Positions 3,701 through 46,457 of a DNA stretch of 64,000 nucleotides are shown piece after piece. Below the pieces are notes generated by a model. It ran no database searches. It was given only the letters and a program-made list of their open reading frames with translations, and was not told the origin of the DNA. The stretch is from contig NC_080540.1 in assembly GCF_028640845.1 (NCBI RefSeq), positions 156,386,438 through 156,450,437 on the forward strand, read 5' to 3'. The stretch is from Ahaetulla prasina. Its lineage: Eukaryota > Chordata > Lepidosauria > Squamata > Colubridae. The position numbers were made by a program, and so were the translations under genes. Each line of letters begins with the position of its first letter. Position 1 is the stretch's first letter.

Positions 3701-6700
3701 TTAGTCCGTGGAAAAACAAATAAACTTTATTTGAACAGCTGGGAATTACTTCATTCCCAGCGTAGTTCAACTCAAAGTAAAACAAATGCCTCCCAACACA
3801 AATTCCTCAGTTATCTCGCAAACCTTGGTCCAATTAGGCAAACTGCTAAAGGCTCTTCCTGGCAAACGTCCAGAAGCCACAAAAACAAAGATGTAGATGA
3901 AGCAGAAGACGCAGCTACAACGCTGTTTTCCAGCAAAGCTCAAACGCCCATGCTGGTCTGTTTTAAGCCTTATGGGAGGAGCCAATCATCTCTTGGCCCT
4001 ACTCCCGAGTTTGTCCTCTCAGTTTGAGCTGCTCTTGCCTTCTGGCAGCTCTTCTCATGCGTGCATTAGGAACAGGCTCCTCCTGTTTCTCTGCCTCACT
4101 ACTATCAGTCTCTGGAGGCTCTGGAGTCTGCACCTCACTTCTCGATGGCCCTGGCCTCACCTCAGCCTCATCGCTGTCCGACTCCATTGCCAGCTCCATA
4201 GACTGCTGGCGGACCACAACAAAAAGACAGAATCTCAGAAGCATGATGTGGGCTTTTTCATTTTATGCTTCTGATGCATTGCATGCCATAGCCAATTATT
4301 TCCTATTTGAAAAATCCCATAGAAACTGTAGCTTAGATTTCACAGTCTGTCTTTTCTCAAGAAGAATAAGGGGCAGGGTCAATATCTGTGATGATGATCA
4401 CAAGCGGTTTTGGGGTTGGTTTTTTTTGGTGATGTAACATTGTCTATATTTACTTAAAAAGGTATAAGAAAATCATGTGTGAATGGAAGATATCAATCAG
4501 ATCTGGCCTCAACTGTTCCCTTTTTCTCCTGAAGCATGGATGAAAATGAGGACATGCACAGCCTTTTACTGACTGACCCTGGCAGTTTGCTTGTTGGAGG
4601 TCTAACCAGCCATGTGATTGAAATAGACCTCAACACAGTGCAGGAAACCCAGAAGGTACCCTCTTGTTTTACTGTGGAATTGATCCCAAGAATCTCAGAT
4701 TGCTGCACAGCGTGGGTTGGTTAGATGCAGGTATTTGGTGAAGGCAAGAAGAGTTTCTATAAAATGTCAATTTCTCCCAGTCTTATAAACAAACTGAGTC
4801 TAAAGCAGAAGAGATACTGCTTAGCTCATGTTAAGAGAGAGAGAGAGAGAGAGAATTCATTGAGAAATACTGTTCCCTCCCAGTGATAATTTTTCAGACA
4901 GTATTGGTTCTTATTATGACCAGTGGGAATACCAGTACTTCTGCTCTCTCTCCCCCAAAGAGGTACTGTTGAAATAAAAATCATGTCGATCACAAGAATT
5001 TTGGGTATATTAAATTAAATTGCATATTTCAAAACAAACGTAATCTGCGTTTCGAGTGTTATAATACAAAATCACAATACAGATATGAAGAGAAGACAAA
5101 AGGGGTCACAATGGTAGTGTAGCAACACCCTTTTCCTGGCAGTCGGTGGATGTTTTGGTTAAAAAGGAACAACGGCTTAAATTTTTCCTGTCCAAGTTTT
5201 TTTTTTTTTTAAACTCCAGCTTATATCTGTATCTCTATCCATTTTAGTATTCGGTGGAAATTCCTGGAGTTACAATTATGAGACAGTCCAACCGTTTCTT
5301 CTTTTGTGGTCACACATCAGGAAAGGTAATATCAACCTCCTTATTTCAACCCCTTGGCTTCCGAGAGCTATAAGCAGCTCTCATATAATCAGTGGTGGTA
5401 TTCAAGTAATTTAACAACCGGTTCTCTGCCCTAATGATTTCTTCCAACAACCAGTTCATCAAACTGCTCCGAAAGTTAACAACCGGTTCTCCCGAAGTGG
5501 TGCGAACTGGCTGAATCCCACCACTGCATATAATATATCTCAGGCTTTTTCATTAGGTTTCCCTGCGTGATCTCCGCACTTTTGCTGTAGAACACGAGTT
5601 CGATGCCTACTCTGGCAGTTTGTCCGATTTTGATGTCCATGGCAATCTGTTGGTGACATGTGGCTTCTCCAGTCGAATGAATGGCCTAGCTTGTGATCGT
5701 TTCCTCAAGGTGTATGATTTACGCATGCTGCGAGCCATTACACCCCTGCAGGTCCATATTGACCCTCTGTTTCTTAAGTTTATTCCTACCTACACATCTC
5801 GCCTGGCCATCATCTCCCAGACAGGCAAGTAGCCAGCTGAATTGTCCTCTGATCTCAAACTTTGATCGCCATTGTGCTGGGACTTTAGAATGCTACTGTA
5901 TTTCATCAAAACGTAATCCTAGAAAATAAGCGAAGTCATGTGGGGAATGTTATGTTAAAAATCCAGAGAGGATTCATTTCTTCTTTTGCTTTCTGTTCCA
6001 GGTCAATGTCAGTTTTGTGAACCTACAGGATTAGCCAATCCTGCTGACATATTTCATGTTAATACAGTGGGGCAGCTAATAATGAGCTTTGATGTGTCAT
6101 CCACCAAACAAGCTATGGTTTTTGGAGACTCGGAAGGCTGTGTCCACTTGTGGGCTGATTCACCTGAGATCATCTTCAACGCCTACTCCCGGGAAACTGA
6201 CTTTGCCTTACCTTGCATTGTGGATACCTTGCCCCACCTTGACTGGAACCAAGATCTCATGCCCTTGTCACTTATACCTGTACCTCTGACCACTGAGTCG
6301 TTGCTGTCTGACTGGCCTGCGGCCAATTTTATCCCCGCACCCAGGTACTTCCTCAACCTAGGAGTGGTAAGAAGAGGATACAAGCTGTGTGAAAGTAGCA
6401 TCGTTTGAGATGGGAATTTTGGTGGGGTTAGCCTCATTGGGGAGCATAGCATTAAAAGGAATGATTAAAGAGATTTTTAAAATGATTGAATGATTGCCTG
6501 TTTTGCAGACGAGCTCCACCTGTTGATCCAGATATCCTTCGGACCATGAAGAAAGTTGGCTTCATTGGATATGCTCCAAACCCCAGGACCAAGCTCCGGA
6601 ATCAGGTAGCAAAATTTGAGACCTGCTCATTTTATGTGGGGGCTATAAGTAAGTAGTATTAATGACTGCCTCATAAGAGCTTGCTGTTTATAGTTAGGTG

Positions 6701-9700
6701 GGGAACCCTACAAATACTACTGAATTAAAGCTCCCAGATTTCCATATCATGGACCACAGTGGCTCGGGTTGTTGAAAATTAGGAATCAGAGACATCTGAT
6801 GTGTAAAGGTCTTTTTCTCTGGTTGAGTCTGGCGTTAACATCATTGCAAAAAGTGTGGCATTGATGTGTGGTTTGGAACCAGATGGAAGGAGAAAGGACC
6901 AGCCATATGGATTTGGGAGTTTGAAGGATTTGTTATTTTCAACTATATCTGGTTGCTTTTGTGCATCTGCTTTGTTTTGGCGTTGTAAAATTTAAAATAG
7001 GGAAAGATAAGTGGACAAACTGAAAGCGAGCCTTTTCCTCTTTTCTGCAGATTCCCTACCGATTAAAGGAGCTTGACAACGAATTTGATAATTTCAGTCA
7101 AGTCCCTGAATCCCCCATAGGAAGAGAAGAGGAACCGCGGATCTATATGGTGGCAAAGAAATACAGGAAGGTGCATTTTTAAGTGCTTCTCAGAATCTTC
7201 CCCTTTTTCTTTAGAGAGAAGTTTAAATATACTCAAGGGTGCAGAGGTAGAAAAAAATTTAAAGCACCTATCTTTTGCACCATACCTTATAAGTCTCAAC
7301 CCCATCTGGGGAAAAAAATGCTGAGCTTCCTTCGTTAGATTATCGCTATTTTTGAGCTGGGGAATAAGAAAAGCTAATGTTGAAACCCATGGGTACTATG
7401 ATAATATCACAAGCATAATGTTAAAACAGGGATTATGATCTGAGAATGTTCTTGAATTAGGATCTTTTTGCAAGGCACTGTAGGGAAGTTTATGTGAAAG
7501 AGAAAATAGTATTGAAGCCCTCTGACTTACACGGTAAGATTGTCACACTAGAACATATTTTTTTTTGGCTTGTCTTATTTAGGTCACAATAAAATATTCC
7601 AAGCTGGGCCTGGAAGATTTTGACTTCAAACATTACAATAAGACCCTCTTTGCTGGTCTTGAGCCCCACATTCCAAACGCTTACTGCAATTGCATGATCC
7701 AGGTAAGCACAGTGTGGTTTCTTATTTGTGACATGCCTATGCAACATTCCTCTTCCTCCTATAATGGTATGTTTTCCGATTGTATCTTTATAGGTTCTTT
7801 ATTTCTTAGAGCCTGTGCGCTGTTTGGTCCAGAATCATTTATGCCAAAAGGAGTTCTGCCTCAGCTGTGAGCTGGGTTTTTTATTCCACATGCTGGATTT
7901 GTCTAGGGGAGACCCTTGTCAGGTAAAGATAAGCATATCTTCATGTTCATCAGATCTTTCCATGATAGGGAGGAGCAAACGGAACCTTTGGCATTTTGAT
8001 CAAAAGTTATTTAGAAGACAACACAAGAAACTTCTTTCAAAATAGTACCAAGTGTAAAAGGTAAAAGGTAAAGGTTCCCCTCGCATTTATGTGCTAGTCG
8101 TTCCTGACTCTAGGGGGCGGTGCTCATCTCCGTTTCAAAGCCGAAGAGCCAGCGCTGTCTGAAGACGTCTCCGTGGTCATGTGGCTGGCATTACTAAACG
8201 CCAAAGGCGCACGGAACACTGTTACCTTCCCACCAAAGGTGGTCCCTATTTTTTCTACTTGCATTTTTTACGTGCTTTTGAACTGCTAGGATGGCAGAAG
8301 CTGGGACAAGTAACGGAAACTCACCCTGTTACGCAGCAGTAGAGATTCAAACCCGCTGAACTGCCAACCTTTCGATCGACAAGCTCAGCGTCTTAGTCAC
8401 TGATCACATCCCCTTATCAAGTGTAGGCATCAAGTGTAGGGTTGTATTAAGTTTTCTGGGCAAGGATGATGATTAATGGCCAGAAATCAAGTTTACCAAG
8501 TTTAGGACCGGATTATTCATCAGTTGGTTTATATTTATTGATAACTGAATATGATGGGACACAGCTGGGAAGAGTCAATTTCATAGAGGCATAGTGTATT
8601 AGAGCAATCCCAGGTGGGAGCTTTCTATCCGGGAACTGCAATTCTTTGACACCTGTCAAGCAGCAGAGCTACAGGACGGAATAGGGATTTATGGCTTCTG
8701 TAACACAAACAATGATAAATGTTAAATTTGTCAAAATGCGAATGTTTCAGGCATGGCAAGTGGTTAGAAGACCACTGCTAGGAGACACCTACACTTGATT
8801 TTCGATATTGGTTTATTTATATGTGGACTTTGCCCATATTTACATTTTCCTTTGTTTTGACTTTGCCAATATTGATTGATTGATTTTAATATTTTGGGGA
8901 TTTTAGCGGGTTTCTTAACACGGGTTTTTTATCTTTTGAATTTTTACCTAATAGTTTTAAGTATACAGCAGTCTAATTAGATTTTTAACTTTGTTATGAT
9001 ATTTTAAATGGTTTTGGATTATTGTCGTTTTACTTGCTGTACACCGCCCTGAGTCTTCGGAGAAGGGCGGTATAAAAATGTGAATAAATAAATAAATAAA
9101 TAAATAAATAATATTTGCATTTACCTCTTAGTCGTCAAGCAATATGATAAAATTTTGGGGCTTGTGCTGTTCATAATTTCAGATGTTTTTCTTTTTTTAA
9201 TCTGATCAATTTTGTAGTTGACCATTTGATCCTGTTCTGTGTGTTGTTGCACCTTTTTATTAATTCACTTAGCATAGTAACATAAGTCTTAAAATTGTAT
9301 ACATACATGCCCTTCATGCTGCTTTCTTTGGGGCTGTGTTCTGCAAAACACAAAAGGAATAAGAAACAGTAAAAATGTGAAATAAGAAAACTAAACATAG
9401 CTAAATCTAATTTATAACATATCATGCACTGTAGCTCTCCGTACCCTTTTTTCCTTGCAAACCACTGTTCCTTCTACCACGTCCATATACTGGCCATTTT
9501 TCGTCAAACTTCTCTGAAAAGAAGATAAAGTTGTCATTGGATAGAGTAGTTTTTCTATCCAATGATAACATTCTCGGTCTTCTTCTCAGTTCATTTGTTC
9601 TTTCTTGATATACATCCTTGAGATGGCCCCCACTCTCACAGAGCAGTGAAGATCTGGATCTTCACCTAAACCTTTGGTAAGGTGAGACACTTTGCTTCAT

Positions 9701-34945: not shown

Positions 34946-35186
34946 TTTTACACAGGAGAAACAGAGCTGCCCTCCCAGTTGCACTCAACTGTAATATAAA
35001 TAAGCCCAGCAACCCTTTTTTCTTGGCTAGGTCCCCATGACATTACATTCATCTCATTCAAAGCCTGAAAGTGACATTTCTGCAAGTCATGTGTTGAGGT
35101 AGGGGTTCCCCCTTTAACCAATTGGTAGATTGATAAAATGCTTCATTATTCTTCACATTAGAAGCCAAGAGCCAGAGGGACCAAAG

Positions 35187-35600
35187 CAGGGGTGAAATGT
35201 TCCCGGTTTGGACCGGATCACCCGATCCGGTAGCAATGGTGGCGGGTGGTTCAGAGAACCGGTAGCAAAAATCCCTGCCCCCCCCCTGCCCAGCTGAGTC
35301 GCGCAATCATCAGAGGTTGGGGTTTTTTTTTACTTTTATAAGCATTTTTTCTTCGGCCCAAAAAATGCTTTTAAAAGTTTTAAAAAAAAGCCTCTGATGA
35401 TCGTGTGGCTCAGCTGGGATCGTCAGAGGAGCCTTTTAAAAGCATTTTTTTACAACCTCTTCGACCGAAGAGATTGTAGAAAAAATGCTTTTAAAAGTAA
35501 AAAAAAAAAAGTTGGCCACGCCCACCCAGTCACATTACCACCACCACCACCAAACCACACCCACAGAACCGGTAGTAACAAATTTTACATTTCACCCCTG
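35187..35600 (+). mobile_element. hAT MITE E1, left border of the tandem duplication
   Basis: CAGGGGTGAAATG to CATTTCACCCCTG (perfect 13-bp inverted ends), target duplication GACCAAAG on both sides (35179-35186, 35601-35608). Internal foldback around ACAACCTCTTCG / CGAAGAGATTGT flanked by TTTTAAAAGCATTTTTT. 414 bp, non-coding. Confidence 0.96.
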
Positions 35601-35616
35601 GACCAAAGATTGGTAC

Positions 35617-35800
35617 AGGTAGTTCTCAACTTACAACCATTCAAAGTTACAACTGCACTGAAAAAAGTACTTAAAACTAGTCCTCACAATTACTGCCAGT
35701 TGTTATGTGATCAAAATTCAGGCACTTTGCAACTGGTATGAATTTACAATAGTTGCAGCATCCCAGGATAATGTGATCACCATTTACGAACCTTCCCAGG
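35617..35800 (+). mobile_element. Partial TA-type squamate MITE in U1
   Basis: Begins TA then CAGGTAGTTCTCAACTTAC. The 5' half of the family seen complete at 57549-57932. Duplicated at 40444-40627. Confidence 0.75.
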
Positions 35801-35809
35801 GGGCTTCTG

Positions 35810-37220
35810 ATGAGTAAAGTCAGTGGGGGAAAGCCTAATTCACGGGTCTCTGAGGAGGAATGCCAGCAGATAGCCCGAATCTGCAAAAGTGAAGTCAGGA
35901 AAGCCAAGGCCCAGAACGAACAAAGACTTGCAACACAAGTCTGTTGGAAGGAAAAGCCATCCGATTCCGTTCCAAGCTGGGAGAAAGAGACTGGAAACAT
36001 GGAGGCTGATGGGAAAGAAAGGTTTATCGATGAAGCGGAACAACCAAGCACATGGGATTCTGGGCAGCTGACAAAATGGTTGAATGAGTGGATGGATCTT
36101 TATAGGTTTCTGTGACTTTGAAGTTTGGACTGCTCTTGGGGTGGTGCAATGAAGGGGCTTGTGTTCTGAAAGGCTGCTGGGCAATTCCTATTGTGGGGAA
36201 TGGCTTTTCTCCTTTGTTGGATCTTCGATGAGGGGCTGCTTTCTAATTCTACCATTCTGCCTTTGTTAGCTGGAGTTTCAAAATTTCCTGTCTTGAATGG
36301 ATTACCAAATCTGCATTTCTAAAAGCTGGCCGCCTCAGTTTCTGCTTGGGGGCAGGGAGACTGGTACTGGTTGCTGTCTCCCTTAAGATTTTTTTTTAAT
36401 TTCTCCGTTAGGGGAAATATATTATCCTGCCTTTTTAATATTTCTCAAAATATTTCATTCTTCTGGGAAGGGGCTTCCCATAAGTCAAAGATAATTTTTA
36501 AAAAGTTTCTTTCAATATGTAAATAACAAGAAAAAAGTCAAGGAAATGGTAGGTGCACTTAAGAGAGAAGATGGCAAGGAAGTAACAGGCAGCAGAGAGA
36601 AAGCAGAGCTGTTTAACTCAGTCAGTCACCCAATTGACTTTATGCTAAGGTAGGACTAGAACTCACTGTCTCCCAGTTTCTAGCCTGGTGCCTTAACCCA
36701 CTGGCTCTCTAGGAGAAGTACTGTTGAAGCTCATTCTGGGGTTTGCTCCCCATTTTGTCTGCTGATGTCCCGATGGATGCAAGACTGCAAAATCTGAGAA
36801 TATATGTGATATATAGAGATCAGTTTTTATGCAAAAAGAAACGATAGCCCAGTCTACCAAAAACGTAACTGTAAAAGACAGACTAGAAATAAAAATTAAA
36901 ATAAGCAAGAAAATGGATAGAGAACACCCATCTGATCTTGACTGGGAGCTGATGGATTACATCCCAGTTTCTGAAAGAGCTGGCAGATGTTATCTCAGAA
37001 CCAGTGTATCACATCTTTCAAAAATCCTGGAACACCGGGGAATTACCTGAGGATTGAAAAAAAAGCTGAAGTGGTTCCTATCTTCAAAAAAAAAAGGGGG
37101 GGGGGAACAGACCCAGGAAACTACAGATCAGTCAGCCTAATATCGGTACCTGGGAAGATTGTCCCAAACCAAGATGATCCAGTTTCACAAGACCCATTTG
37201 ACACAAACAAATCTAGTATG
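35810..37220 (+). mobile_element. Dead CR1/Jockey-type LINE ORF2 remnant in U1
   Basis: Pieces read ARICKSEVRKAKAQNEQRLA, then MVGALKREDGKEVTGSREKA, and later AEVVPIFKKKRGGGTDPGNY RSVSLISVPGKI. These are consecutive blocks of the linker and RT domain of CR1-like LINEs, with frameshifts and a SINE fragment (36600-36712) between them. Duplicated at 40637-42047. Confidence 0.8.
36600..36712 (-). mobile_element. Sauria-type SINE fragment in U1
   Basis: Minus strand reads GTTAAGGCACCAGGCTAGAA then ACTGGGAGACAGTGAGTTCT. Truncated. Duplicated at 41427-41539. Confidence 0.7.
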
Positions 37221-37684
37221 TGAATTTTAATTCATTTAAGGATCAATGAGGACTTACAATCTATCCTCCAGATGTTTTGATCTATATCAGGGATGTCAAA
37301 CTCGCGGCCCACAGGCCAGATGCGTCACGTGCTGGACAACCCTGTTTTAGCAAAGGGGGGAAAATAGTTGCGATACGTCATGTGATGAAAATGTGACCCC
37401 CCCTGATCTATAACTACCATTTTTTTGGGCCAGCCATAGTCACTGGCTGAGCTAATTGAGAAAATTACAATTTGGATGGCAGCTGTTGAGGAAAATTGCA
37501 TAAATATCCCTCATCTCAAGACCAAGTTAGATATTCTGCAAATTACAGCAGTTTGTGTTTCTTCCATTGTCCAACTGCTGTGATTTCTAACTAAGATCCC
37601 ACCTTTGAAGTGTGTGTTTTCATTTCAAAGTAAATCTATCCGTTAGTAGCAATAGCGGTTTCCTTCCTCGCCTATGATATATAT

Positions 37685-38315
37685 CAGTGATGGCTAACCT
37701 TTTCCAGACCGAGTGCCTGAGGCATGCACGTGTGCGCATGAATGCGTGCATGTGTGCCCGGACCCCCAAAATACAATGCGCACCTGGCCCCATCTCCCCA
37801 CACATGAGTGCATGGCCTCCTACATGCCCCCTGCCCCCCACACATGCGCAAGTGCCTCCCCTGCGTACCCTGCCCACACACATGTGCATGTGCCTCCTCC
37901 CGTACACACCCTCCATGTGCACAGCAAAGACGCAAAGACCAGCTGGCTGGTGGGAAGCGCATGCGCATGCGCAGCAGAGTTGAACTGGGACGACAGCTCA
38001 CGTGCCATCAGAAAGGGCGCTGCATGCCAGACTCTATGGTCTCTTCCCAAAATCCCCAAAGCTTTAACCAAAAACTATCTACTATTGACCTCACCCCATT
38101 CCTAAGAGGTCTGTAAGGGCCGTGCATAAGAGCACCAACGTGCCTAATGTTCCCTTTGATTATATCCAATTTCATATAGTTATTACATACTTATGATTAT
38201 ATATATGCTTATAAATCGTATAGTTATTTCATGCTTATGCTTATATATAATGTGACAAATAAAATAAATAAATAAAATAAATGCCACCTCTGGCATGAGT
38301 GCCGTAAGCTCTCGG
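37685..38315 (+). mobile_element. hAT-like MITE with nested LINE end in U1
   Basis: Starts CAGTGATGGCTAACC after ATATATAT (37677-37684); a degraded right end CTCTCGG at 38315 is followed by ATATATAT (38316-38323). A LINE 3' end (38030-38280) sits inside it, flanked by ATGCCA on both sides. Contains the NRF1-type palindrome TGCGCATGCGCA at 37962-37973. Confidence 0.65.
38030..38280 (+). mobile_element. LINE 3' end nested in the hAT MITE, U1
   Basis: Begins GACTCTATGGTCTCTTCCC and ends TGTGACAAATAAAATAAATA. Encodes the tail of the FSNRVVNAWNALPDSVV-type LINE frame. Target duplication ATGCCA (38024-38029, 38281-38286). Confidence 0.75.
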
Positions 38316-38814
38316 ATATATATTATATACAGTACCTTTGGGAGAGGAGATGCTTGTTTTCTGATATAATAATTATTTATTAGCATTCTGAAGTCTTCCA
38401 AACCTACTGAGTGTGATTAAGAATAGAATCTTGACCTCATTAGAGCTCAGAAGGATTTTTGTAGAAGTAAAGCTAGTGTGGGAATCAACACTCTTCTCCT
38501 TACTGACCACAGGGAGTTTCATTTGCATTTCTGCATGTTTCCCAATACAGGATAACTTAAAGTTACTTCTGAGTAAAGTGAGGTATTTTCTGGAACAAGA
38601 CAAAAAAAAAAACAGTTCAGGAACTATTGTAAGTTAAGAAGCTATTTTTACTTACGGTCAAAATGGAAAGAAAATAATTTAATTAGATACTAGGCTAAGA
38701 TGTAACTATAGGGTTAAATTTATTAAATGTTTTTAGAGCTGTAACTTTAGCAATTCTTAGAAATAAGTTTCTGGAAACATTTGGAAAGGTTAGCCAAATA
38801 ACCCTAACCCTAAC

Positions 38815-39365
38815 TCAAGATCTCTTCTTTCCATATTTCATCTGTAAACAAATAATAAAGCCTCAATGTTTCATTTTAATCAGCAAAAGCCCATTACCAG
38901 AAATAACAATATATGCATTATAGCCTTAAACAAATTGATTTCATATTTGTTTTATTTGTTTATCATTTTCTGTAAAGATATAACAAAAAGGTCTCTTCTA
39001 CCCATATCTCATATCTATATATAAAACTTTAAAACTTTATCATTTAATTAATCAAGAAAAATAATATTAAAATCTACCAGGAACAACATTTTGAAAAGCT
39101 TAATCTTTAATCCCTTCAAATAGTGACTTGTAAAATCATTTCTTATCATTTTCTCTTCATCTTCTCTCAGAAACTCCTTCACAAATTTTACATTTTTTTT
39201 TCAATTTTAATACCGTAACTTATCACTTTCTCTAAAACATACAACAACAGAAAATCTCCCATTTCCATAACTTGCCTATAAGCAAATGTTTAAAGTCTCA
39301 TCATTAAGTCCTGGTCATGAAAAAATCATTAAAATGTCAAACAAAAATTACAAATTTGAACAAAG
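38815..39365 (-). repeat. A/T-rich repeat in U1, same family as PAN2 intron 2
   Basis: Its reverse complement shares TTTCTGAGAGAAGATGAAGA and ATTTGAAGGGATTAA with 2100-3030. Duplicated at 43642-44190. Confidence 0.6.
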
Positions 39366-39379
39366 AAAATAAGAAAATC

Positions 39380-39770
39380 AAAATATGATTGGGCACTCCA
39401 GTGCCCTTGAGCACACATGCCCCCTTAAGGGCCTTTTAAATATGGAGTAAGGTCCACAGAAGTTGTTAGAATTAAAAACTGTGAAAGTTAATGGCTGAGA
39501 CAACTGACTTCGACAATTCTGTTACAAAAATTGAATTGTTCACAATCGAGTTTAGAGCAGTTTATATTAAGTTTAAAGTGATTTTTTGCACGTGTTACAT
39601 TACAATTAAAGGTCTAAAAGTCATTTACAAGTAAAGCATTACTGTGTACAATCTGGATGCAATACTTAAGTCTGATCGCAAGTGTCACAATTCTAAATTA
39701 TCCAAACCAAAAATTTCAAGCCTAGTAGCATAAGGTATTCTATTATGGACAAAATAACGCAAGAACTTTT
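39380..39770 (-). mobile_element. Old LINE 3' region in U1
   Basis: Degraded relative of 51420-51790: shares AAAATTTCAAGCCTAGTAGC-like end and the TAAGGTCCACAG block. Duplicated at 44205-44596. Confidence 0.6.
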
Positions 39771-40016
39771 CTTGTAAATACTTCTGAACTTGCTCAGAGG
39801 TTTTAATGTCTGATAAAGATTCCAGATAGTTTTAATCTTGATCAAATAAGCCAACTCTCTATTCCTACTTTTGCTTTCAAAAGTCTTGATGCAAAGGGAA
39901 AAAAATGAAAAATCCGTTTTTGGGGCATACTTTAAAGAAACAAAATAGTGTCTTAAAAGTTGATTTTTTTTCTTTTTAATCTTTTCTCCGGAAGTCCTTT
40001 ATAACTACAGTATAAC

Positions 40017-40427
40017 CAGGGGTGAAATGCTCCCGGTTCAGACCGGATTGCCTGATTCTATAGCGATGGGGGTGGGTGGTTCGGAGAACTGGTAGCAAAA
40101 ATCCCTCCCCCCACCACCCATGCTCAGCTGAGCTGCACAATCATCAGAGGTGTTTTTTTAAAACTTTTAAAAGCATTTTTTCTTCGGCTGAAAAAATGCT
40201 TTTAAAAGTAAAAAAAAAAGCTTCCGATGACCACGTGGCTCAGTTGGGATCATCAGAACCCTTTAAAAGCATTTTTTTACAACCTCTTCGGCCAAAGAGA
40301 TTGTGGAAAAAATGCTTTTAAAAGTAAAAAAAAAAAAGTTGGCCACGCCCACCCAGTCACATTACCACCACCACCACCAAACCACACCCACAGAACCGGT
40401 AGTAACAAATTTTACATTTCACCCCTG
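40017..40427 (+). mobile_element. hAT MITE E2, chimera at the duplication junction
   Basis: Same family as E1 and E3, but its flanks do not match each other. The left flank is AGTATAAC (as at both sides of E3) and the right flank is GACCAAAG (as at both sides of E1). Its left third reads like E3 (CGGTTCAGACCGGATTGCCT), its right part like E1 (AGAGATTGT, CACCACCACCACCAAACCAC). The switch lies within about 40150-40290. Confidence 0.95.
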
Positions 40428-40636
40428 GACCAAAGATTGGTACAGGTAGTTCTCAACTTACAACCATTCAAAGTTACAACTGCACTGAAAAAAGTACTTA
40501 AAACTAGTCCTCACAATTACTGCCAGTTGTTATGTGATCAAAATTCAGGCACTTTGCAACTGGTATGAATTTACAATAGTTGCAGCATCCCAGGATAATG
40601 TGATCACCATTTACGAACCTTCCCAGGGGGCTTCTG

Positions 40637-42047
40637 ATGAGTAAAGTCAGTGGGGGAAAGCCTAATTCACGGGTCTCTGAGGAGGAATGCCAGCAGATAG
40701 CCCGAATCTGCAAAAGTGAAGTCAGGAAAGCCAAGGCCCAGAACGAACAAAGACTTGCAACACAAGTCTGTTGGAAGGAAAAGCCATCCGATTCCGTTCC
40801 AAGCTGGGAGAAAGAGACTGGAAACATGGAGGCTGATGGGAAAGAAAGGTTTATCGATGAAGCGGAACAACCAAGCACATGGGATTCTGGGCAGCTGACA
40901 AAATGGTTGAATGAGTGGATGGATCTTTATAGGTTTTTGTGACTTTGAAGTTTGGACTGCTCTTGGGGTGGTGCAATGAAGGGGCTTGTGTTCTGAAAGG
41001 CTGCTGGGCAATTCCTATTGTGGCGAATGGCTTTTCTCCTTTGTTGGATCTTCGATGAGGGGCTGCTTTCTAATTCTACCATTCTGCCTTTGTTAGCTGG
41101 AGTTTCAAAATTTCCTGTCTTGAATGGATTACCAAATCTGCATTTCTAAAAGCTGGCCGCCTCAGTTTCTGCTTGGGGGCAGGGAGACTGGTACTGGTTG
41201 CTGTCTCCCTTAAGATTTTTTTTTAATTTCTCCGTTAGGGGAAATATATTATCCTGCCTTTTTAATATTTCTCAAAATATTTCATTCTTCTGGGAAGGGG
41301 CTTCCCATAAGTCAAAGATAATTTTTAAAAAGTTTCTTTCAATATGTAAATAACAAGAAAAAAGTCAAGGAAATGGTAGGTGCACTTAAGAGAGAAGATG
41401 GCAAGGAAGTAACAGGCAGCAGAGAGAAAGCAGAGCTGTTTAACTCAGTCAGTCACCCAATTGACTTTATGCTAAGGTAGGACTAGAACTCACTGTCTCC
41501 CAGTTTCTAGCCTGGTGCCTTAACCCACTGGCTCTCTAGGAGAAGTACTGTTGAAGCTCATTCTGGGGTTTGCTCCCCATTTTGTCTGCTGATGTCCCGA
41601 TGGATGCAAGACTGCAAAATCTGAGAATATATGTGATATATAGAGATCAGTTTTTATGCAAAAAGAAACGATAGCCCAGTCTACCAAAAACGTAACTGTA
41701 AAAGACAGACTAGAAATAAAAATTAAAATAAGCAAGAAAATGGATAGAGAACACCCATCTGATCTTGACTGGGAGCTGATGGATTACATCCCAGTTTCTG
41801 AAAGAGCTGGCAGATGTTATCTCAGAACCAGTGTATCACATCTTTCAAAAATCCTGGAACACCGGGGAATTACCTGAGGATTGAAAAAAAAGCTGAAGTG
41901 GTTCCTATCTTCAAAAAAAAAAGGGGGGGGGGAACAGACCCAGGAAACTACAGATCAGTCAGCCTAATATCGGTACCTGGGAAGATTGTCCCAAACCAAG
42001 ATGATCCAGTTTCACAAGACCCATTTGACACAAACAAATCTAGTATG
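40637..42047 (+). mobile_element. Dead CR1/Jockey-type LINE remnant in U2
   Basis: Copy of 35810-37220, still encoding the same broken frames, so the LINE was already dead before duplication. Confidence 0.8.
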
Positions 42048-42510
42048 TGAATTTTAATTCATTTAAGGATCAATGAGGACTTACAATCTATCCTCCAGAT
42101 GTGTTGATCTATATCAGGGGTGTCAAACTCGCGGCCCACAGGCCAGATGCGTCACGTGCTGGACAACCCTGTTTTAGCAAAGGGGGGAAAATAGTTGCGA
42201 TACGTCATGTGATGAAAACGTGACCCCCTGCTCTATAACTACCATTTTTTTTTGGCCAGCCATAGTCACTGGCTGAGCTAATTGAGAAAATTACAATTTG
42301 GATGGCAGCTGTTGAGGAAAATTGCATAAATGTCCCTCATCTCAAGACCAAGTTAGATATTCTGCAAATTACAGCAGTTTGTGTTTCTTCCATTGTACAA
42401 CTGCTGTGATTTCTAACTAAGATCCCACCTTTGAAGTGTGTGTTTTCATTTCAAAGTAAATCTATCCGTTAGTAGCAATAGCGGTTTCCTTCCTCGCCTA
42501 TGATATATAT

Positions 42511-43142
42511 CAGTGATGGCTAACCTTTTCCAGACCGAGTGCCTGAGGCATGCACGTGTGCGCATGAATGCGTGCATGTGTGCCCGGACCCCCAAAATAC
42601 AATGCGCACCTGGCCCCCATCTCCCCACACATGAGTGCATGGCCTCCTACATGCCCCCTGCCCCCCACACATGCGCAAGTGCCTCCCCTGCGTACCCTGC
42701 CCACACACATGTGCATGTGCCTCCTCCCGTACACACCCTCCATGTGCACAGCAAAGACGCAAAGACCAGCTGGCTGGTGGGAAGCGCATGCGCATGCGCA
42801 GCAGAGTTGAACTGGGACGACAGCTCACGTGCCATCAGAAAGGGCGCTGCATGCCAGACTCTATGGTCTCTTCCCAAAATCCCCAAAGCTTTAACCAAAA
42901 ACTATCTACTATTGACCTCACCCCATTCCTAAGAGGTCTGTAAGGGCCGTGCATAAGAGCACCAACGTGCCTAATGTTCCCTTTGATTATATCCAATTTC
43001 ATATAGTTATTACATACTTATGATTATATATATGCTTATAAATCGTATAGTTATTTCATGCTTATGCTTATATATAATGTGACAAATAAAATAAATAAAT
43101 AAAATAAATGCCACCTCTGGCATGAGTGCCGTAAGCTCTCGG
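42511..43142 (+). mobile_element. hAT-like MITE with nested LINE end in U2
   Basis: Copy of 37685-38315. NRF1-type palindrome at 42789-42800; nested LINE at 42857-43107 between ATGCCA repeats. Confidence 0.65.
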
Positions 43143-44839
43143 ATATATATTATATACAGTACCTTTGGGAGAGGAGATGCTTGTTTTCTGATATAATAAT
43201 TATTTATTAGCATTCTGAAGTCTTCCAAACCTACTGAGTGTGATTAAGAATAGAATCTTGACCTCATTAGAGCTCAGAAGGATTTTTGTAGAAGTAAAGC
43301 TAGTGTGGGAATCAACACTCTTCTCCTTACTGACCACAGGGAGTTTCATTTGCATTTCTGCATGTTTCCCAATATAGGATAACTTAAAGTTACTTCTGAG
43401 TAAAGTGAGGTATTTTCTGGAACAAGACAAAAAAAAAAACAGTTCAGGAACTATTGTAAGTTAAGAAGCTATTTTTACTTACGGTCAAAATGGAAAGAAA
43501 ATAATTTAATTAGATACTAGGCTAAGATGTAACTATAGGGTTAAATTTATTAAATGTTTTTAGAGCTGTAACTTTAGCAATTCTTAGAAATAAGTTTCTG
43601 GAAACATTTGGAAAGGTTAGCCAAATAACCCTAACCCTAACTCAAGATCTCTTCTTTCCATATTTCATCTGTAAACAAATAATAAAGCCTCAATGTTTCA
43701 TTTTAATCAGCAAAAGCCCATTACCAGAAATAACAATATATGCATTATAGCCTTAAACAAATTGATTTCATATTTGTTTTATTTGTTTATCATTTTCTGT
43801 AAAGATATAACAAAAAGGTCTCTTCTACCCATATCTCATATCTATATATAAAACTTTAAAACTTTATCATTTAATTAATCAAGAAAAATAATATTAAAAT
43901 CTACCAGGAACAACATTTTGAAAAGCTTAATCTTTAATCCCTTCAAATAGTGACTTGTAAAATCATTTCTTATCATTTTCTCTTCATCTTCTCTCAGAAA
44001 CTCCTTCACAAATTTTACATTTTTTTTTCAATTTTAATACCGTAACTTATCACTTTCTCTAAAACATACAACAACAGAAAATCTCCCATTTCCATAACTT
44101 GCCTATAAGCAAATGTTTTAAAGTCTCATCATTAAGTCCTGGTCATGAAAAATCATTAAAATGTCAAACAAAATTACAAATTTGAACAAAGAAAATAAGA
44201 AAATCAAAATATGATTGGGCACTCCAGTGCCCTTGAGCACATGCCCCTTAAGGGCCTTTTAAATATGGAGTAAGGTCCACAGAAGTTGTTAGAATTAAAA
44301 ACTGTGAAAGTTAATGGCTGAGACAACTGACTTCGACAATTCTGTTACAAAAATTGAATTGTTCACAATCGAGTTTAGAGCAGTTTATATTAAGTTTAAA
44401 GTGATTTTTTGCACGTGTTACATTACAATTAAAGGTCTAAAAGTCATTTACAAGTAAAGCATAACTGTGTACAATCTGGATGCAATACTTAAGTCTGATC
44501 GCAAGTGTCACAATTCTAAATTATCCAAACCAAAAATTTCAAGCCTAGTAGCATAAGGTATTCTATTATGGACAAAATAACGCAAGAACTTTTCTTGTAA
44601 ATACTTCTGAACTTGCTCAGAGGTTTTAATGTCTGATAAAGATTCCAGATAGTTTTAATCTTGATCAAATAAGCCAACTCTCTATTCCTACTTTTGCTTT
44701 CAAAAGTCTTGATGCAAAGGGAAAAAAATGAAAAATCCGTTTTTGGGGCATACTTTAAAGGAACAAAATAGTGTCTTAAAAGTTGATTTTTTTTCTTTTT
44801 AATCTTTTCTCCGGAAGTCCTTTATAACTACAGTATAAC

Positions 44840-45560
44840 CAGGGGTGAAATGCTCCCGGTTCAGACCGGATTGCCTGATTCTATAGCGATGGCGGCGGGT
44901 GGTTTGGAGAACCGGTAGCAAAAATCCCTGCCCCCCACCCCAGCTGAGCCACGCAATCATCAGAGGTGTTTTTTTAACTTTTAAAAGCATTTTTTCTTCG
45001 GCCAAAAAAATGCTTTTAAAAGTAAAAAAAAGCTTCTGATGATCGAGTGGCTCCGCTGGGATCTTTAGAACCCTTTAAAAGCATTTTTTCTACAACCTCT
45101 TTGGCTGAAGAGGTTGAAAAAAAAAGCTTTTAAAAGGCTCCTCTGGCAATCCCAGCTGAGGCCAAAGAGGTTGTAGAAAAAATGCTTTTAAAAACTTCTG
45201 GCAATCAGGCAACTCAGCTGGGATCATCAGAACCCTTTAAAAGCATATTTTCTACAAACTCTTCAGCCGAAGAGGTTGTAGAAAAAATGCTTTTAAAAGG
45301 TTCTGGCAATCAGGCAACTCAGCTGGGATCATCAGAACCCTTTAAATGCTTTTTTTCCTCTGACAATCCCACCTGAGTTGCCTGATCATCACAGGCTTTT
45401 AAAAACATTTTTTTACAACCTCTTCGGCTCAAGAGGTTGTAGAAAAAATGCTTTTAAAAGTAAAAAAAAAAAAAAGTTGGCCATGCCCACCCAGTCACAT
45501 TACATCTCCCCAAGACACACCCACAGAACCAGTAGTAACAAATTTTACCTTTCACCCCTG
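44840..45560 (+). mobile_element. hAT MITE E3, right border of the tandem duplication, with expanded core
   Basis: CAGGGGTGAAATG to CTTTCACCCCTG, target duplication AGTATAAC on both sides (44832-44839, 45561-45568). At 721 bp it is longer than E1 and E2 because a block of about 100 bp (GGCAACTCAGCTGGGATCAT with the ACAACCTCTT foldback) is repeated about three times (45100-45420). Confidence 0.95.
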
Positions 45561-46457
45561 AGTATAACACATCTGTTTTGCATGTCCAAGGTAAGAAAGC
45601 TGTCCAAGGCAGTCTTCTGAGTTGAAATCCACATATACAAGTCATTGTATACTTATATTATCAGCATGTTCCTTTTAGTCATTAAAACATCGGTCAGTTC
45701 CATTTTAAAGTCCTGTGTCACATCTTTGTCCATACCATTGTTTGCAGTTCCTTTGATGAAGAGAGAAGTCATTTCTTTAAATATATTTTTCTTTATATTT
45801 TCTCTTCTTCCATTTTTTCTCTCTGGACTTTTTTCTTTTTCATAATTTTCTTAGTTTGTATTAGCTTCTTATCTTCCTATTTTAAAATTTTAATAAAAAT
45901 TGTTATAAAAAAGAAAAGAGTTATTCCAGAGGGCTACTGATGAATGATTTGATTCAGGGACTATTTAATTTCATTTGTTGATGTTATTCTTGTTATTCTT
46001 GTTTTTTATTCTTGTTATTCTTTTTTTGGGCTTAGTTTGTATTTGGTTTATGTGGCTTAACAGCTATACAGCACTGAAAGATATATATTTGCAGCAGATG
46101 CAAACAGGTCATAATTTATACCGTATCATCAATAAAAAATTGAAAGGACAGGTAGGACTGAAATTGGTTAAATTCACTTGTTCCTGCTTTAGAAAATGAT
46201 AGAGCACAAAAATCCATAGATGGGATGATTGTCCTCTTTTCTTTGTACTGATTGAATGGTATCAACGTTATTCATCCAGCCATTTCTACTAATATAACAT
46301 GGGCAGAGTTATATTTAGTAGCTCTAGTACCTTCAAGGTCTGTATGATTTCCCAAATATATATAATAATGAAATTCAACATTTTATGCTAGAGCCTTCTA
46401 GGAAGACTTCAAGGTGAATTTGAGCGCTCTATCCCTCTTTAACCAAGTCCGCTTATA
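45561..46457. other. Intergenic; L1-like tail near 45840-45920
   Basis: 45840-45920 reads like an L1 3' end (TTTTAATAAAAATTGTTATA then A-rich). The rest shows nothing recognised. Confidence 0.45.

Follow-up and report, generated by a model that had tools for sequence, protein, structure and literature searches.

What kind of exchange could give a transposable element a left target site belonging to one neighbour and a right one belonging to the other? The question is raised by a stretch of 64,000 nucleotides from the snake Ahaetulla prasina (hereafter the window), in which three related elements, E1, E2 and E3, alternate with two copies of an interval, U. The original prediction read E2 as the mark of a single unequal crossover in which E3 recombined with E1. 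The features on which the answer depends are the following.

35179-35186, forward strand: left target-site copy of E1, GACCAAAG
35187-35600, forward strand: E1, a short-type hAT-like non-autonomous element of 414 bp
35601-40016, forward strand: U1, the first copy of the duplicated interval, starting with GACCAAAG (35601-35608) and ending with AGTATAAC (40009-40016)
37276-37571, forward strand: stretch of U1 with 7 of the 14 U1/U2 substitutions
40017-40427, forward strand: E2, 411 bp, in three parts
40017-40069, forward strand: left part of E2, 53 bases identical to E3; edge at 40060-40069 (element position 44-53) within 2 log units
40070-40305, forward strand: core of E2, 236 bases, unlike present E1 and E3, with the behaviour of a family copy independent of both; right edge at 40294-40328 (element position 278-312) within 2 log units
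40306-40427, forward strand: right part of E2, 122 bases identical to E1
40428-44839, forward strand: U2, the second copy of the interval, starting with GACCAAAG (40428-40435) and ending with AGTATAAC (44832-44839)
44840-45560, forward strand: E3, a long-type element of the E1/E2 family with an expanded interior, 721 bp
45561-45568, forward strand: right target-site copy of E3, AGTATAAC

GACCAAAG stands on both sides of E1 and AGTATAAC on both sides of E3, whereas the left flank of E2 is AGTATAAC and its right flank GACCAAAG. This pattern had been predicted, and every position of it is confirmed: in the window, GACCAAAG lies at 35179, 35601 and 40428 and at one other place, 54121, and AGTATAAC at 40009, 44832 and 45561. 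The two flanks of E2 agree with each other at 2 of 8 positions, and each reproduces that of a neighbour exactly. In a control sample of 38 further family members from the same genome (E2 and E1 left out), the 8-base flanks are identical in 19, agree at 6 or more of the 8 positions in 33, and agree at fewer than 6 in five, two of these apparently through a shifted end. With 33 of 38 copies at 6/8 or better, mismatched flanks are unusual. Judged from the sequence, the exact match of the E2 flanks to both neighbours is not chance, and, given the swapped target sites, it is nearly certain which elements took part in the exchange. In Drosophila, chimeric transposons with exchanged target-site duplications at the Galileo inversion 2z3 are described as proof of ectopic recombination (PMC2775673). 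E2, with one target site from each neighbour, is alike in being a chimeric transposon with swapped sites. It differs in that the Galileo case is an inversion between opposite-facing copies with the exchange within 141 bp, whereas here same-facing copies bound a tandem duplication and the core of the hybrid is unlike either parent.

All three elements end in the common terminal repeat CAGGGGTGAAAT/ATTTCACCCCTG, apart from a single mismatch in E3, at its 3' end. They have the short terminal inverted repeats of a hAT-type MITE and belong to one many-copy family, and the control flanks above show its 8-bp target-site duplication. The superfamily is presumably hAT, a name that we take from the target-site length and the end sequence. 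E1 and E3 are about 84-87% identical, and their longest perfect run is 37 bases. E3 represents a long form whose interior contains repeated blocks, partly inverted. A rough motif test divides 88 distinct copies into 44 long and 44 short ones; between the two groups no site up to position 289 differs in frequency by 0.3 or more, and one site, at 290, does. A scan of the window against Rfam at gathering scores returned 0 matches. Copies of the family also accompany duplicated sequence elsewhere. A second duplicated block tied to it, at C7:93647300-93655700, has two family copies adjacent to each other in its second block and matches itself at block-relative 450-1685 versus 7168-8401 (97.4%) and 6-1134 versus 6066-7184 (94.4%). 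At a locus on C8, a 589-base head-to-tail repeat (482-1069 and 1060-1648, 99.3% identical) holds part of a family element.

Over ~4,400 aligned bases, 14 substitutions and 10 gap columns separate U1 from U2. When 1,717 of the 4,416 bases of U1 were searched against the genome (1.77 Gb, 745 contigs), there were two full-length matches, both at the present locus, among the 40 of 2,623 candidates that were scored. With the borrowed flanks of E2 and the duplicated interval taken together, the layout is naturally explained by an exchange of E3 with E1. The target-site pattern, the three elements and the near-identity of U1 and U2 give good support to a duplication by E3/E1 ectopic exchange, and a tandem duplication of the 4.4-kb U joined through an E3/E1 hybrid is the best reading of the locus. 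That much of the original prediction stands. The substitutions are clustered, 7 of 14 falling within 296 bases (P ~0.001, for a 300-base window chosen after the data were seen), which counts against one recent duplication under a uniform clock. Positions 37290-37409 and their U2 copy, read by eye, probably represent another small element within U, hAT-like but different from E1-E3, which begins CAGGGATGTCAAACTC, finishes near CCCCTG and is flanked by ATCTATAT/ATCTATAA; part of the cluster falls in it.

Transposition of two hAT elements by reversed ends has been shown for maize Ac (PMC3744419), where hAT elements are likewise accompanied by tandem direct duplication, and the same-direction hAT-like elements beside the duplication seen here would fit it. 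As described there, such duplications have no element at one breakpoint, whereas recombination between elements should leave three copies. In maize one endpoint lacks an element and the junction carries a newly made 8-bp target site; here an element is found at both ends of the duplication and between the U copies (E1, E2, E3), and E2 keeps the old AGTATAAC and GACCAAAG. Reversed-ends transposition is therefore rejected, and we consider it hardly credible as the origin of the duplication.

The interior of E2 departs from a simple exchange. In the family alignment, E2 has 0 differences from E3 over its first 53 bases and 0 from E1 over its last 122. The core between them (element positions 54-289 for difference and site counts; 54-278 for the free-divergence fit, allele polarising and 88-copy distances) differs from E1 at 33 of 232 sites (14.0% in the 88-copy comparison) and from E3 at 28 of 223 (12.6% in that comparison), while E1 and E3 differ from each other there at 20 of 222. 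Both edges are sharp, rising from 0 differences to about 12-14%. In a three-way alignment of the core, E2 agrees with E1 only at 7 sites and with E3 only at 9, all three differ at 4, and E1 equals E3 against E2 at 16; the rate between U1 and U2 predicts 0.75 such sites (Poisson P (≥16) ~2e-16). E2 is thus a mosaic, with E3 on its left and E1 on its right as had been proposed, but the likeness is confined to the two outer parts, and the element is three-part rather than a two-part hybrid with a single switch point. E3 identity stops at 40069 and E1 identity begins at 40306, and the predicted exchange interval, 40150-40290, falls within the 236 bases that match neither.

Polarised alleles give the same division. 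The left end (1-53) carries 5 of 5 E3-derived alleles, compared with 0-2 of five in 58 control copies, and the right end (279-411) carries 3 of 3 E1-derived alleles, compared with 0-3 in the controls and all three in 2 of 58. The core (54-278) has only 2 of 12 E3-derived and 2 of 14 E1-derived alleles, within the range of the 58 controls (0-5 of each). As a consequence, the history of E2 is, contrary to what had been supposed, not fully readable, and an exchange point cannot be placed within the core.

These partitions were compared by likelihood, with family column frequencies as background, divergence fixed at the U1/U2 rate, indels ignored and E3 entered as the first 297 and last 177 of its 721 bases. 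The three-part model (E3, background, E1) reaches a log likelihood of −71.3, whereas the best single crossover reaches −182.8, about 111 units worse and below even the model with no special relation at all (−103.9). Allowing only the E3 left part gives −87.2 and only the E1 right part −88.0. The background is favoured for the core in this comparison, since the control copies were selected by resemblance to E2 (38) or, for the next 20, to its core (58). Once divergence is fitted freely, deriving the core from E3 does slightly better than background, by 1.7 log units, which counts against a third copy as the source of the core, and E1 ancestry gains nothing. A sub-tract at 175-208 of the core, tried as E3-derived, scores 5.1 log units, and 12 of 38 control copies score higher, which leaves it weak.

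The control set was enlarged with copies found with E1 and E3 to 88 (97 before contained duplicates were dropped). Of these, 56 lie nearer to the E3 core than the E2 core does, and 76 lie nearer to the E1 core; as measured from the E2 core, 35 copies are nearer than E3 and 50 nearer than E1. Only 6 of the 88 are nearer to the E3 core than E1 is. Taken with the derived-allele counts, these distances give the E2 core no look of a recent descendant of present E1 or E3. It differs from the family majority at 25 of 234 positions (10.7%), farther than any of the cores of 38 sampled copies (5.2-9.9%), and hence does not resemble an averaged repeat. One rare allele, 206T (3 of 88 copies), is common to the E2 core and E3 and counts against a third-copy source.

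An E3/E1 crossover of the simplest kind could be retained if the differences in the core were later point mutations or hypermutation accompanying the crossover. It would account for the exchanged target sites and the duplication of U, and the best single switch, at element position 276 (window 40292), falls near the predicted interval. Its likelihood is nevertheless worse than that of no relation, and, up to position 228, every core allele that departs from the family majority occurs among the 58 other copies, with the exception of 54G. At positions 174 and 218, E2 holds the majority base where E1 and E3 are each derived. Mutation or hypermutation after the duplication is rejected because nearly all the differing alleles up to position 228 occur in other copies and because of the majority bases at 174 and 218. 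A single crossover in 40150-40290 is ruled out by the core differences, the likelihoods and the allele counts, and the general form of this explanation appears very improbable. With a middle that matches neither neighbour, the event is unlike one simple crossover.

A donor for the core was sought in the genome. Besides E2 itself, the query 40075-40330 found nothing above 91% identity among the 40 of 4,717 candidates scored. The E1 core has no other match above 90% (40 of 3,520 scored), and E3 is matched over most of its interior at 78-85%, with partial matches up to 94% (40 of 8,437 scored). A donor surviving from the time of the duplication is expected to be ~99% identical, so this result counts against the third-copy reading and disfavours a recent copy from an element that is still present. 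It likewise disfavours a false join in the assembly, by which two haplotypes would have been placed in tandem inside the repeat. The divergence and clustering of the U1/U2 substitutions would also fit two haplotypes, but a false join implies a core sequence that is found elsewhere. The distance of the core from the family majority is also unlike that of an averaged repeat, the window is free of any N, and both full-length matches to the searched 1,717 bases of U, among the 40 candidates scored, lie here. An artefact of this kind seems improbable to us.

We favour a history in which the duplication arose by E3/E1 ectopic recombination and E2 received its core from a third family copy, either in the same repair or later, and assign it a probability of roughly 0.58. 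The ancestral order would have been E1 - U - E3, one hAT-like MITE family having inserted twice, independently and in the same orientation, 4.4 kb apart. E3 on one chromatid would then have exchanged with E1 on another, leaving U in tandem with a hybrid between its copies that retained the first 53 bases of E3 and the last 122 of E1. The 236-base core may have been copied from a third family member by a template switch or multi-copy strand invasion during that repair; alternatively, a third family member may have converted E2 later by ectopic gene conversion. As single-stranded DNA, E2 is predicted to fold far better than shuffled sequence (z −8.9), which makes breaks or fork stalling in the core plausible. 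We entertain only tentatively the more specific proposal that one germline repair used three copies of this short palindrome-rich MITE, with a break in or near E3 or E1, passage through a third dispersed copy and closure on the other neighbour. If this is true, it would represent multi-copy invasion or template switching between repeats of ~84-87% identity in a vertebrate, with a templated MITE core as the junction.

The main rival is an old duplication. According to it, E3 and E1 recombined when they were young and nearly identical, the core of E2 aged alone, and gene conversion or unequal exchange between the tandem copies later restored the likeness of U1 to U2 and of the adjoining element ends. 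The lack of a close donor for the cores of E1, E2 and E3 (40 candidates scored for each) agrees with this explanation, as do the clustering of the U1/U2 substitutions, the rare 206T common to the core and E3, and the slight preference of the free-divergence fit for E3 ancestry. The family moreover looks star-like up to position 289, where long and short copies show no frequency difference of 0.3 or more, and in such a family a core that had aged by itself would resemble that of E2. The sharp edges of the core are not easily explained by such ageing. Ongoing conversion is expected to reach the outer core, and conversion between copies that have diverged by 12% should be strongly suppressed. We regard the old duplication as the less likely of the two histories. 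As a further option, E2 might be the faithful hybrid and E1 or E3 might have been converted since; such a later change is possible, as the cores of E1 and E3 resemble each other fairly closely, and no donor for it was found either among the 40 candidates scored per core.

The case of E1-E3 belongs to a known kind, and the core that matches neither parent is its puzzling part. At human Alu/Alu chimeras, template switching is discussed as a possible process instead of classical crossover, and the junctions at PLP1 resemble E2 in that short repeats, diverged but perfectly matched over runs of some tens of bases, are joined into a chimera at a copy-number junction (PMC6902434, PMC4352052). One of the PLP1 cases reported there has two chimeras; the core of E2, by contrast, has no traced donor. 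In yeast, multi-invasion-induced rearrangement lets one broken end engage several repeat copies and yields rearrangements with inserted sequence (PMC10499017). It serves as an analogy only, as no break site, secondary rearrangement or donor is seen at E2. Within the reach of our literature search, which drew on parts of the sources, no three-part MITE junction was found, and its absence from print is not thereby proven. A review names CR1 fragments that adjoin viper phospholipase A2 genes as possible substrates of such duplication (PMC8303610).

For the interpretation of similar loci, the finding carries a caution: matching target sites and matching ends alone do not prove a simple crossover. 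With a core that lacks explanation and exchange partners that are nearly certain, E2 constitutes a clean test case. A comparison among related snakes would bear on whether three-copy template switching between short diverged MITEs can produce duplications or whether conversion keeps old tandem duplicates alike.
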